64,000 nt of DNA from positions 62,001-126,000 of the forward strand of contig VGOD01000001.1 of assembly GCA_016876015.1 (NCBI GenBank). Reading direction: 5' to 3'. This document shows, one piece after another, positions 2,474 through 26,311 of this stretch. The translations under genes were made by a program, and so were the position numbers. This DNA comes from Chloroflexota bacterium. Lineage in GTDB: Bacteria > Chloroflexota > Anaerolineae > CG2-30-64-16. Each line of letters starts with the position of its first letter. Within the stretch, counting starts at the first letter, position 1. The notes beneath the pieces were generated by a model that had not been told where the DNA came from, searched no databases, and was given only the letters and a program-made list of their open reading frames with translations.

Positions 2474-2565
2474 GTATCTTCTCAATAATCCGGGGTAGGG
2501 GCACGGCCTTGCACCTGCCCACCGGGGCGACCGCGAGGGTGCGCCCCTACAAATTGAGAAGATAC
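2474..2565. mobile_element. MITE-like non-coding element with 13-bp perfect terminal inverted repeats and 8-bp target duplication
   Basis: GTATCTTCTCAAT (2474-2486) / ATTGAGAAGATAC (2553-2565); inner GTAGGGGC (2495-2502) / GCCCCTAC (2543-2550); flanks TATACCCT at 2466-2473 and 2566-2573. Confidence 0.8.
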
Positions 2566-2590
2566 TATACCCTCTTGCTGGTTCCAGCTT

Positions 2591-2620
2591 TTGACATGTT
2601 ACCGATGATAGTGATACAAT
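2591..2620 (+). promoter_or_regulatory. Sigma70-type promoter for the 2752-6073 operon
   Basis: TTGACA (2591-2596), 18-bp spacer, TACAAT (2615-2620). Confidence 0.6.
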
Positions 2621-2751
2621 GTTGTTCGAGCTTCGCAGCCACTTCGCAGCAGAACGTATGCACACCAGTCGCTCTTGAGCTACACATCTACACCCTCGTC
2701 AGGTAGTAGTCTCAAGCACAGTACAACTGAACACGCAGCAAGGAGGACATC

Positions 2752-4107
2752 ATGAATCAAGGACAGATTCGATGCGGACGGTCTCTCAGCCGCAGGGATT
2801 TCCTCAAAGGTGCGCTGGCCGCAGGCGCGGTCAGCGCCCTCGCCGGTTGCGTAGCGGTTCCATCGGGACCGTCTCCCGCGCCTGCCAAGCCAGCGCCTGC
2901 GAAGCCTGCCGAAGTCACCAAGGTCACCTTCCTCATCTGGGGCGGCGAGGCTGAGCAGAAGGCATGGGAGGCGCGACGCCAGGGATTCCTCAAACGCTAC
3001 CCCAATCTCGATGTAGAGATCATCTTCCCGCCCGGGAACTACACCGAGAAACTCACCGCCATGATCGCCTCTGACACCGCGCCCGACACCTTCGTGTCCA
3101 ACAATCTGCGTTGCGACAGCCAACGCAAGATCCTGCTGCCCCTCGATAACCTGATCGCCAGCGATCCTGACTTCGACAAGCAGGATTGGTTCCCTGGTGG
3201 TCTCGATGGCGGCAAGGTGAAGGGCGTACAATATGCCATCCCTGGCGGCTTGGGGCCGCAGGTGGTCTTTTGGAACGTGGACTTCTTCCAAGAAGCCGGT
3301 CTAAAGAACCCGAACGAACTGCACGACAAGAACGAGTGGACCTACGATCGCATGTTGGAGTACTCTCGCGCGCTCAACAAGAAGGAAGGGAACAAGATCA
3401 CCCGGTTTGCCTTCCTGCCCTACACGCAATGGTGGACCTACATCGCCGGCTTCGGCGGCGAACCCTTCAACGCCGACTACACCGCCTGCTACATGGATCA
3501 GCCGAAGAACTACACCCCCGTCCAATGGTATGCGGACCTGTGGCTCAAAGAGCACGTGGCGCCGCTTCAGGAAGAGCGCGGCGAGTTCGGTTCGTGGCCC
3601 GGCTTCCGCGATGGCAAGTACGCGATGTTCATCAGCGGCCCCTGGCAGCAAGCCCGGCTGGCCGACTCCAAATACCGCTGGGACATCGCCTGGCCGCCCT
3701 TACAGGCTGGCGGTCGCCCCCTGATGAACTCGGGCGGCGGCGGCTCGGTGATCTATCCCAAGTCCCAGAAGATCCAGGCCGCTTTCAAGTGGATCTCCTA
3801 CATCGAGAGCGCGGAAGGGCAGGCAGTGTGGGCTGGGTTGGGGTTCGATCTGCCCAGCCACCCGTCGCTCGTGACAGACTACATCGCCGGCAAGTTCTTC
3901 ACCAATCCGAAGGCCATACCGCCCTCTGTGCGCTTGTGGTACAAGGTGGTGGAGGCGTCCGTGAAATCGCCGCACACGTACATCACCGCCCAGGCAGGCG
4001 ATCTGTTGAACCAGGCATTCAGCCAGATCAACACCGGCGCGGCCACGGCGCAGAAGGCATTCACCGAGGTCAACAAAGACGTCAACACGGCGCTGAACGC
4101 CTGTTGA
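2752..4107 (+). CDS. ABC transporter substrate-binding protein (family 1, sugar), Tat/lipoprotein signal
   Basis: SRRDFLKGALAAGAVSALAGC signal; SBP_bac_1-like body; followed by two permeases. Confidence 0.92.
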   Translation: MNQGQIRCGRSLSRRDFLKGALAAGAVSALAGCVAVPSGPSPAPAKPAPAKPAEVTKVTFLIWGGEAEQKAWEARRQGFLKRYPNLDVEIIFPPGNYTEKLTAMIASDTAPDTFVSNNLRCDSQRKILLPLDNLIASDPDFDKQDWFPGGLDGGKVKGVQYAIPGGLGPQVVFWNVDFFQEAGLKNPNELHDKNEWTYDRMLEYSRALNKKEGNKITRFAFLPYTQWWTYIAGFGGEPFNADYTACYMDQPKNYTPVQWYADLWLKEHVAPLQEERGEFGSWPGFRDGKYAMFISGPWQQARLADSKYRWDIAWPPLQAGGRPLMNSGGGGSVIYPKSQKIQAAFKWISYIESAEGQAVWAGLGFDLPSHPSLVTDYIAGKFFTNPKAIPPSVRLWYKVVEASVKSPHTYITAQAGDLLNQAFSQINTGAATAQKAFTEVNKDVNTALNAC

Positions 4108-12301: not shown

Positions 12302-12358
12302 GATTTGCCTTTAGTGATGTGAAGAGGTTCACCGCCAAGGACAGAGATTGGAAATCCC

Positions 12359-12444
12359 CGGCTCAATCTGAGAAGCCCCATCAGGGGCTGGAGACCAGCG
12401 GCTGAGGCCGCTTTTCAGCTTCAGACGGTGAATTGGATTCACCG
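12359..12444. repeat. Palindrome-rich intergenic repeat, copy A
   Basis: AGCCCC-atca-GGGGCT, AGCGGC-tgag-GCCGCT, CGGTGAAT-tgg-ATTCACCG in series; matches 21832-21917 in reverse complement. Confidence 0.75.
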
Positions 12445-12471
12445 GTCTATTTCGTGATGAACCCGGATTCT

Positions 12472-23318: not shown

Positions 23319-23446
23319 GCTGAGCTTGTCGAAGCGACGCGCCCTTCGACAAGCTCAGGGCGCGTCCCCCTTGTCTACTTGTTTCCTTGTGTACTTGCTT
23401 CCCCCTCTACTCACCTGCCGCGTCGTCCCCTTCGACAAGCTCAGGG
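23319..23446. repeat. Three copies of the CCCTTCGACAAGCTCAGGG repeat (one inverted)
   Basis: GCTGAGCTTGTCGAAGC near 23319-23335, CCCTTCGACAAGCTCAGGG at 23342-23360 and 23428-23446. Confidence 0.85.
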
Positions 23447-24574
23447 CGCGTACTCACCGTACTCCCGGCACACCTCGCAGGCGTACCGATACGACCGGTA
23501 GTCCACGGTCGGCGGCACAGAGTGATCGCTGCCCCAGATGAAGCGGCCGCCGCGTTCCTTCATGCCCGTAACCAGCCGGATCACCTCCCGCTTGATCTCC
23601 GCCAGGTCGCCGGTCTCCAGGATGCGGACATCCATGCCGCCGATGAAGGCCAGCCGGTCGCCGTACTGCTCGGCCAGCGCCAGCGGATCCATGCCCGCCT
23701 TGCGCTCCAGCGGGTTGAGGATGTCGAACCCGGCTTCGAGCAGCAGCGGGATGGCCGCCCGCGCATCCCCGCAGACGTGCAACTCCACGGGCAGGCCGTA
23801 GCCGTGGAGGAAGTCCACGATCTCCCGGTAGAACGGCAGATACATCGTCCGCATCGTCTTGGGCGAGGCGAACAAGCCCCCGCGGTAAGCGAAGTCGTCA
23901 ATTAGCCGCACGCCATCCGGGATGCCGGCTTCGTCCAAGAGCAGCTTCCAGTGGGCCAGGTAGAAATCGGTGTAGACGCGATTGATGTCGAGGATCCAGT
24001 CGGGGTCGAGGACGAGCGCCTGCCAAAAGTCCACATCGCCCATGAAGCCGGATGCCAGTTGGAAGAGCAGCCCGGCCTGGAAGTAGGCGTAAAGCCCCTG
24101 GCTATGGCGCTGGGCCAGGCCCTGCCGAGCGCCTTCGATGTTCACCCGCGCCCGATCCAGATGGAGGAGGTGCGGTCGGTAGTCGCGCTCCCAGATCGCC
24201 CGGCTGGTCATGCGATGATCCACGTGCTCGCGCGCGCCGGCGCGATGCTTCCACGCCTTGACCGCCGCGCCCGCGCCGTTGCGCGTGATGATCCACTCGT
24301 CGGTCTCCGCGATCACCTCCGAGTAGCCGCGAATCGGCTGCGAATCGAGCAGGAAGGCCGGGCCGGCGCGGAAAAGGTCGAAGCCGAAGTGGGATACCCA
24401 GTCAACGGACTGGCTTCTGACCATGCCATCCTCCGTTACGACTTCCTCGGTCGGGTAGCCTTGCTCGAGCCAGGCCTGAATCGTCTCGGGCCAGATTTCG
24501 ACCTCGCGCAAGCCCACACGGATGGGCTGGCGTTCAACCAGCAAGGCGCGGATGATGTCGCGAGATGTGGGCAT
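23441..24574 (-). CDS. Uroporphyrinogen decarboxylase (URO-D) superfamily protein
   Basis: MPTSRDIIRALLVERQPIRVGL; GLPVELHVCGDARAAIPLLLEAGFDILNPLE; FIWGSDHSVPPTVDYRSYRYACE. Confidence 0.82.
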   Translation of the reverse strand: MPTSRDIIRALLVERQPIRVGLREVEIWPETIQAWLEQGYPTEEVVTEDGMVRSQSVDWVSHFGFDLFRAGPAFLLDSQPIRGYSEVIAETDEWIITRNGAGAAVKAWKHRAGAREHVDHRMTSRAIWERDYRPHLLHLDRARVNIEGARQGLAQRHSQGLYAYFQAGLLFQLASGFMGDVDFWQALVLDPDWILDINRVYTDFYLAHWKLLLDEAGIPDGVRLIDDFAYRGGLFASPKTMRTMYLPFYREIVDFLHGYGLPVELHVCGDARAAIPLLLEAGFDILNPLERKAGMDPLALAEQYGDRLAFIGGMDVRILETGDLAEIKREVIRLVTGMKERGGRFIWGSDHSVPPTVDYRSYRYACEVCREYGEYAP

Positions 24575-24590
24575 GGGATGAGTCCTGGAT

Positions 24591-24703
24591 CGCCGAATGA
24601 ATTCGGCGCTGAGAAGCCACACCCGTTGAAACGGGTGTCGAGCCGCGCTGCTGGTCAACCCGTTTCAACGGGTTTTTCGTATCAGCATCGGTTTCAACCG
24701 ATG
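24591..24703. repeat. Array of four perfect 8-9 bp stem, 2-nt loop hairpins
   Basis: CGCCGAAT-ga-ATTCGGCG; ACACCCGTT-ga-AACGGGTGT; AACCCGTT-tc-AACGGGTT; CATCGGTT-tc-AACCGATG. Confidence 0.9.
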
Positions 24704-24706
24704 CCA

Positions 24707-26311
24707 TCATCGCGGCGTGATGGCCGCGTACTCTGGCCACGCCAGCTCGAAGCCCAGCGTGTTGACCAGCATCGCCTGGAAATCGGCTAGATGCGTCGCG
24801 TCGCCGCGCACCTGGCGCGGGGCCAGCCCTTTTGCCAGGCAGTAGGCCGCCAGCGCGCCGGCCGCCTCGCCGATGTTCCATTCGACCGGGTGCAACCGGT
24901 AGCAGCCGTTGGTGATGTGCGTCACGCCCAGGTTCTTGCACGCCGGCAGCAGGTTCTCGACGCGCACCGGGATCAACGCGCCGAGCGGGATCTGGAACGG
25001 GTAGTTCGAGATGTCAATGTAGTTGCGCACGCCGGTGCTAACGTGCAAGTCAATCCGGTAGCTGCCGACGCCCACGCTGTCGGGGAAGATCGCTGCGCCC
25101 ACCAGTTTGCCGCGTTGCTCCAGGCCGACGTGCTGCTCCAGCACCGTGAATTCGGCGCGAATGCGCCGGCTCTCCCGGATGTAGACGTACTTCGCCAGGC
25201 CGTCGGCCGTGCCCACGATGTCGTGACGTAGCCGCAGGCCGGGGTAGCCGATCCCGCCATCGTGTCGCGGGGCCTCGGTCTGCATCCAATAGAGCAGCGA
25301 CAGGCTCAGGTTTTTGCCGCCCGCCACGTGTCGCGCGGCCTCCTCCCGGCTCACCCCCACCAATGGCCCGGTCCAGTAGTCGTTGTGCGGCCAGTTCACC
25401 AGGGTGATGTCGCTGGGGTAGAACCCGTCGGGGTAGTACTCTTTGCACAGGATGCGGCGGTAGAGCCAGAAGGAGCTGACCGGCCGGCCGCTGGCGAGCG
25501 GTTTGGCGTGGAAGACGCCCCGGTCGCGCGGTTCCAGGGTGATCGGATCCACGTCGCGCCAGCCCAATTGCGGGCCGGGCCAGAACGGCGCCTGATATTT
25601 GCGCCAGGTCTCGTAGTCGGGCGGCCTCGCGATGGTGTGATCCTCGCCGGGCAGGTAGTCCATGGCGAAGCACGCGGTGAACGACTGCTGATCCAGCGGG
25701 TCGGCCGCGCCGGGCAGCGCGTGCAGCTCGCCGGTCTGCGCCTGGCTCTCCGAGCCGATGACGTGCTCGACGCGGGCCAGCTCCAGCAGGTCGCCCAGCT
25801 CGGTCGCGTCGAGGATGTAGGCCGCGCTGATGGTCGTCTCCTGGCCGGTCTCTTCGTCCAGCAGCCGCACGGCCCGCACCCGGTCGCCGTCCGTCTCGCA
25901 GCCGACCGCCCGATGGCGCAGCAGCACCTCCAACTGCCGGCCTGAGCGGTAGGGCGCCAGCATCTCCTCCAGCACGGCCAGCGCAACGCGCGGCTCGTGG
26001 CACAGCCGGCTGACGTTGCCGTTGCCGGGGTTCAGCAGCATCCGCTCCCGGAGCTCCTGGCGCAGCGGATAGTTGCGCCGGTAGTAGTCGCGGATGCCCT
26101 GGCGCAGGCGACGGTAGGAGTTGGTGCAGCCAGTCGTCTCGATCCACGGATGTTCGTCGGGCGGCACAGCCTGCTGCGTGAGCTGCCCGCCGATCCAGTC
26201 GGTCTCTTCGGTCAGGATGACGCGCTGGCCCAGGCGCAGCGCGGCCAACGCGCCGGCCACGCCGCCCAGCCCGCCGCCAACGATCAGGATGTCAGTCTGT
26301 TGTTCGGTCAT
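24707..26311 (-). CDS. FAD-dependent oxidoreductase (PF12831-type)
   Basis: [45 protein letters not shown]. Confidence 0.9.

Follow-up and report, generated by a model that had tools for sequence, protein, structure and literature searches.

A dispersed four-hairpin DNA element of Chloroflexota with stem turnover under fixed pairing, a probable variant of REP doublets

Introduction

Among the dispersed short palindromes of bacterial genomes, the GTAG-tagged REPs, BIMEs and REPINs are associated with RAYT (TnpA-REP) transposases, and a GTAG family has been reported from a member of the Chloroflexota, Thermomicrobium roseum (PMC3733652, PMC3686654). Like these systems, the element described here consists of inverted doublets of short palindromes, the stems of which vary and one foot of which bears a conserved motif; its mostly intergenic location, its subfamily variants and the presence of a Y1 gene flanked by cognate repeats are further similarities. 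It differs from GTAG REPs in that each element comprises four hairpins and a closing stem, with a TGAA tetraloop in most hairpins of close copies, a foot motif that is mostly GTRYCAG rather than GTAG, and a wide turnover of stem sequences.

A second related system is CGTC-3 of Agrobacterium tumefaciens, a CGTC-tagged REP dimer with two stem-loops in its spacer (PMC3733652). The present element is likewise a head-to-head palindrome dimer in which two extra spacer stem-loops bring the number of hairpins to four, and its loops are also 4 nt long; the four-hairpin layout as such therefore has a precedent. It is distinguished from this precedent by loops that are predominantly TGAA, by linkers that pair, by GTRYCAG at the foot and by the wide extent to which its stems have turned over. 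Unlike CGTC REPs, the element has no CCA tails, its third hairpin (H3) being followed by TTGG or a similar sequence in the aligned copies, and CGTC precedes H3 in some copies only. Furthermore, CGTC REPs have been reported to occur without a dedicated transposase (PMC3733652), whereas Y1 genes flanked by the four-hairpin element exist in a relative of the source genome (G009).

Similarities were also noted with bacterial MITEs such as Chunjie (PMC10969869), which are small and palindromic, occupy intergenic regions and operon gaps, fall into several size classes and include copies without terminal repeats. In contrast to Chunjie MITEs, many copies of the present element, including the one that was analysed first, lack terminal inverted repeats, and its interior stays conserved although the terminal frames differ. 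In-frame insertion into protein genes, seen here for UvrD/REP-type helicase genes in G006 and G008, is a feature shared with Rickettsia palindromic elements (PMC10969869, PMC3733652), but most copies of the present element are intergenic, and its sequence and layout are different. No prior description in Chloroflexota was found in the literature searched, the coverage of which extends little into subscription journals. The element may also resemble the double-hairpin elements of fungal and algal mitochondria, mobile hairpin elements that consist of two hairpins and for which we know of no link to Y1 transposases.

Organization of the element in the window

The window, i.e. the whole 64-kb stretch of chloroflexotan DNA that was analysed, contains four perfect palindromes at positions 24591-24704, and no other hairpin in it combines a GA/TC loop with a stem of 8 bp or more. 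All four had been described originally and were located at 24591-24608, 24619-24638, 24657-24674 and 24685-24704; the proposed stem lengths of 8-9 bp were confirmed, except that the fourth hairpin has 9 bp instead of 8 bp. The proposed 2-nt loops are better read as TGAA tetraloops, located on the + strand in the first two hairpins (H1 and H2) and on the - strand in the last two (H3 and H4). In total, the window holds eight hairpins that have a 2-nt loop and a stem of 8 bp or longer, compared with 2.2 expected from 60 dinucleotide shuffles. None of the 60 shuffles contained more than one such hairpin within 113 bp, as opposed to four at this locus, thereby ruling out chance palindromes.

The four hairpins constitute one composite element of ~115 bp, not four copies of one unit. 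The complete element (24590-24704, + strand) was matched by covariance model R1 over its full length (model positions 1-113; 93.8 bits). H1 (24591-24608, + strand; CGCCGAA-TGAA-TTCGGCG; 8 bp), the stem of which is identical to the H1 stem of the copy on contig C409 of the same genome and of several copies in relative G004, is followed by a left linker (24609-24618, + strand) and by H2 (24619-24638, + strand; ACACCCGT-TGAA-ACGGGTGT; 9 bp). A central spacer (24639-24656, + strand) separates the two inverted halves and is followed by H3 (24657-24674, - strand; AACCCGT-TTCA-ACGGGTT on the + strand, with TGAA on the - strand; 8 bp), a right linker (24675-24684, + strand) and H4 (24685-24704, - strand; GCATCGGT-TTCA-ACCGATGC on the + strand, with TGAA on the - strand; 9 bp). 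A closing stem is formed between CTGA in the left linker (24609-24612) and TCAG in the right linker (24682-24685), so the hairpins are not independent units and the whole represents a single element. The earlier view of an array of same-architecture units diverging from each other was not supported, as each hairpin has a fixed place of its own, which also rules out a CRISPR-like regular array of one unit. A conserved motif, GTATCAG (24679-24685), is located immediately 5' of H4 and places a GTRYCAG sequence at the H4 foot; inspection of the foot motifs of this copy showed the canonical GTAG tag to be absent.

As predicted, the element lies between two co-directional genes, both on the - strand: a URO-D/methylcobamide-methyltransferase-like gene (23441-24574; Pfam PF01208, weak NCBIfam matches) and a gene for an FAD-dependent oxidoreductase (FAD_oxidored; 24707-26311; Pfam PF12831). 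The 132-bp gap between these genes is almost wholly taken up by the element, and a target-site duplication was not found for this copy. A second, diverged four-hairpin element was identified at 12341-12445 on the - strand (R1 match of 29 bits, E 6e-4), and its neighbours are again a URO-D-like gene and one for an FAD oxidoreductase. Comparison of its sequence by eye assigned it to the subfamily found next to the Y1 transposase gene on contig C261 of G009.

Element family and covariation

BLAST comparison of a 148-bp region retrieved copies from contigs C262 (two in tandem) and C409 of the source genome and from relatives G004, G008 and G009, and GTTTCAAC, the core of three hairpins, was found to occur 133 times in the 6.5-Mb genome as against 55 times for its reversed control. 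Same-layout elements are therefore present both elsewhere in the genome and in relatives, and their absence, which had been named as grounds for refutation, was not observed. The 21 aligned copies share one layout, consisting of H1, linker, H2, spacer, H3, linker and H4, with complementary linkers closing a cloverleaf. TGAA in H1/H2 and TTCA in H3/H4 were observed in 159 of 162 hairpins, corresponding to two inverted halves. Linker pairing within an element was scored at 4.55, compared with 3.63 for shuffled partners (largest shuffle, 4.18), for 33 of the 35 elements parsed, 35 being all that the first general parser of all four hairpins recovered.

In the unfitted alignment of the 21 copies, 95.5% of cells were paired and changes on both sides were found in 19 of 37 pairs. 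The covariation score was reached by none of 500 shuffles, where cells count sequences rather than events and where the structure was named after inspection of the same 21 sequences, so that the slid control favours it. When 150 R1 matches were aligned to the model, yielding an alignment that is fitted to the structure and takes in both strands of many elements, both sides had changed in all 37 pairs, 91% of cells were paired and the covariation score was again reached by 0 of 500 shuffles. These double-sided changes strongly support the original proposal that selection or a replication mechanism acts on the structure itself.

The sequences represent a DNA element family in which stem sequence turns over while pairing and layout stay fixed. 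Among 194 TGAA/TTCA hairpins from 84 elements, a set that left out hairpins with more than one mispair, 60 distinct 7-bp stems were counted and 1320 of 1358 pair cells were Watson-Crick; 12 wobble cells were counted when one strand was read and 18 when its complement was. Switches between G-C and A-U occurred with hardly any G-U; for example, one pair of the model-fitted alignment was GC in 86 cases, AU in 54 and GU in one. The closing stem departs from this pattern: in the 21-copy set it contains 31 G-U cells on the + strand and nine on the - strand, a count that is inflated by related copies.

In a few cases the loop was inverted with the stem unchanged; for example, H4 of copy L212 carries TGAA, and H1 of copy L268 carries TTCA. 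Loop inversion is a described footprint of replication template switching, and the concerted change of both arms together with a few loop inversions fits such a process (PMC8794818). Pairing could in principle be kept by mutation alone, with template switching rewriting one arm from the other and no selection on the structure, as both the GC-to-AT pair switches almost without G-U intermediates and the loop inversions would follow. This explanation is nevertheless considered highly improbable, since clear loop inversions are few and since it leaves the dispersal, four-hairpin layout, linker pairing, foot motifs and Y1 flanking of the elements unexplained.

Genomic distribution and insertion sites

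At an E-value of 0.01, R1 matches were obtained in eight of the ten genomes of the GTDB family, with about 1-32 R1-detectable copies per genome among genomes with any, a number below the high copy number of REPs and REPINs, which often exceeds 100 per genome. In a phylum-wide sample screened at E 1e-6, matches were present in 11 of 251 Chloroflexota genomes including the source genome (10 of 250 others), and the 240 genomes without a match served as the specificity control; R1 E-values are rough by construction, most of the genomes are draft assemblies, and the source genome has an estimated contamination of 5.5%. Distant copies, such as L287 and L289, have the layout in common but little sequence.

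Placement relative to genes, as called by a simple codon-usage script, was determined for 82 copies, of which 68 are located between genes, ten inside predicted genes and four at contig edges. Of the gene-bounded copies, 56 lie between co-directional and three between divergent genes. The orientation to the co-directional genes is mixed, being the same in 24 cases and opposite in 32. Two elements, L206 (G006:C466, 1216-1329) and L259 (G008:C642, 1501-1614), each form part of the reading frame of a UvrD/REP-type helicase gene; the two genes come from different genera and carry the insertion in a similar position, comparable to in-frame REPs and Rickettsia palindromic elements.

A role of the element as a structured RNA of the operon transcript, i.e. 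a stability element, attenuator or processing site selected at the RNA level, was considered as an alternative. The fold z-score of about -5.5 on both strands, the frequent location of copies between co-directional genes and the effects on mRNA of REP and MITE transcripts in other systems (PMC10969869, PMC3733652) are all compatible with such a role. However, the scarcity of G-U pairs on both strands (closing stem excepted), combined with the mixed gene orientation, disfavours a strand-specific transcript function. In addition, the 64-kb window gave no match to an Rfam model at gathering score or to a tRNA-like gene, both of which were thereby rejected, and the only T-run (after H3) is on the + strand, antisense to the operon, with none following the hairpins on the - strand, which rules out an intrinsic terminator. 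As the element is also absent from orthologous gene pairs, selection at the RNA level is regarded as improbable. The window copy is probably neutral to its host; any influence that it has on the transcript of the operon would be no more than modest.

Sites with and without the element were identified among relatives. For example, when the flanks of L222, a copy in G009, were joined, they gave an uninterrupted alignment (83%) to G004 and to G005, which represent orthologous sites without the element; similarly, the element is absent in G004, G007 and G008 from the site of the two-copy C262 locus (L282) and in G007 from the L257 site. In G007, no element accompanies the orthologue of the window FAD gene, which is adjacent to another gene than in the window, and a tblastn search with the URO-D protein against 80 loci around FAD homologues returned no URO-D match nearby; these two results rule out a conserved cis-regulator of the FAD/URO-D pair. 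Within the source genome, the near-identical loci L278 (C131) and L283 (C409), both followed by what is presumably a DsrE-like gene, differ in that the full element is present on C409 but just the left half on C131, with a short CTG repeat at the junction.

Association with transposases and foot motifs

Y1 transposase genes were sought in six genomes, and 14 such genes were examined for flanking elements. Two of them, both from G009, were identified as Y1 (IS200-like) genes with matching family hairpins on both sides. The gene on contig C42 (Pfam Y1_Tnp; NCBIfam IS200/IS605) is bordered by a full element on one side and by an array of half elements with a 68-bp period on the other, while that on C261 has a half unit upstream and a full four-hairpin element downstream. 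RAYT genes and their REPs have been described in this same layout (PMC3733652). The two Y1 genes of the source genome have no flanking elements, which rules them out as the mobilizer. GTRYCAG was found at 60 of 125 outer-hairpin feet, and the REP-type motif GT[A/G]G at 20 of 125, versus 5% in random 10-mers; the latter feet belong mainly to the G001 subfamily and to a few copies of the source genome.

Several subfamilies are located within terminal inverted repeats. In G004 and G005, type-I copies are framed by TAGTGGGTCGTTTGG-type inverted repeats with a spacing of about 194 bp, and TAGTGGGTCGTTTGG-type ends also bound IS630-type transposase genes in the source genome and in G009. G001 elements fill MITEs of 150-151 bp with GAGACTGTTTGAAAAGTC ends (43 end matches versus none for the reversed control), one of which, L219, is accompanied by an 8-bp flanking repeat, TCGATAAG. 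The element might accordingly be the interior of MITEs moved by DDE transposases, of the IS630 type in the family and of another type in G001, with the window copy being an old one that has lost its terminal repeats. This alternative deserves consideration but is judged unlikely: terminal inverted repeats in common with a transposase-bearing element (IS630-type ends) were found in some type-I copies, whereas the copies in the window, C262 and C409 have none, and other IS630-type MITEs of G009 and G005 carry unrelated interiors. Because frameless copies have the cloverleaf too, and because it recurs within two or more inverted-repeat frames that are unrelated to each other, the frames would seem to be secondary.

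Mobilization and maintenance of the element

On balance, the window array is probably a single copy of a palindromic element that was once mobile and became dispersed, namely an inverted REP-like doublet that was moved in trans by a Y1 transposase. In this reading, the doublet consists of H1 and H4, both of which have a conserved motif at the inner foot; H2 and H3 occupy its spacer, and the linker stem closes the cloverleaf. Mobilization by a Y1 transposase is likely, and the hairpins may have served as the single-stranded-DNA substrate of a Y1/HUH (RAYT-type) enzyme. Pairing would then be maintained because only well-paired hairpins are mobile, probably with the help of replication template switching, in which one arm serves as the template for its partner.

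Some observations weigh against this trans-mobilization: only two of 14 Y1 genes are flanked, both in one relative, and those of the source genome are not; several subfamilies are enclosed by inverted repeats of the DDE-transposon type, so that DDE enzymes might have moved them; and the window copy is missing the canonical GTAG tag. Given this missing tag and the source genome's lack of a flanked Y1 gene, the element is designated a BIME/REPIN-like variant of REP doublets, the spacer of which is structured and which by analogy would work like a REP doublet, rather than a proven member of that group.

A more speculative and rather doubtful extension is that the Y1/HUH transposase recognizes the cloverleaf by shape, not by stem sequence, while template switching rewrites both arms at once. 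If so, stems would turn over rapidly under a fixed shape, and one mobile element could underlie many unrelated-looking palindromic repeats across Chloroflexota. The family can be traced across Chloroflexota in nature, with stems that turn over under fixed pairing and layout and with candidate Y1 partners identified, which makes it testable how far REP transposases read shape versus sequence and whether double-sided stem changes arise from a single template-switch event. It also calls for caution, as covariation in intergenic hairpins can reflect mobile elements at the DNA level instead of functional RNA.

Other repeats

Several additional repeats were encountered. At L319 (G004:C213), an identical hairpin, CGTGCCAGGCACTT, occurs at 1205 and 1884 on both sides of a Y1 gene and is unrelated to the four-hairpin family. 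Loci L304-L308 of G009 and G005 represent further MITEs of 119-281 bp with IS630-type ends and unrelated interiors. A separate, abundant palindromic repeat, CGTCATTCCCGCGCACGCGGGAATCCAG, is present on many contigs of G009 and resembles the CGTC-type REPs of the literature. In the source genome, tandem 81-bp units of several short hairpins, including GCGGTTGAAACCGC, were observed on C97 (L061, about 2490-3080), and C21 (L089, about 70-1370) harbours at least 22 repeats of TTTTCCCCACACGCGTGGGGGTGA at 61-bp spacing, which looks like a CRISPR array of type I-E size.
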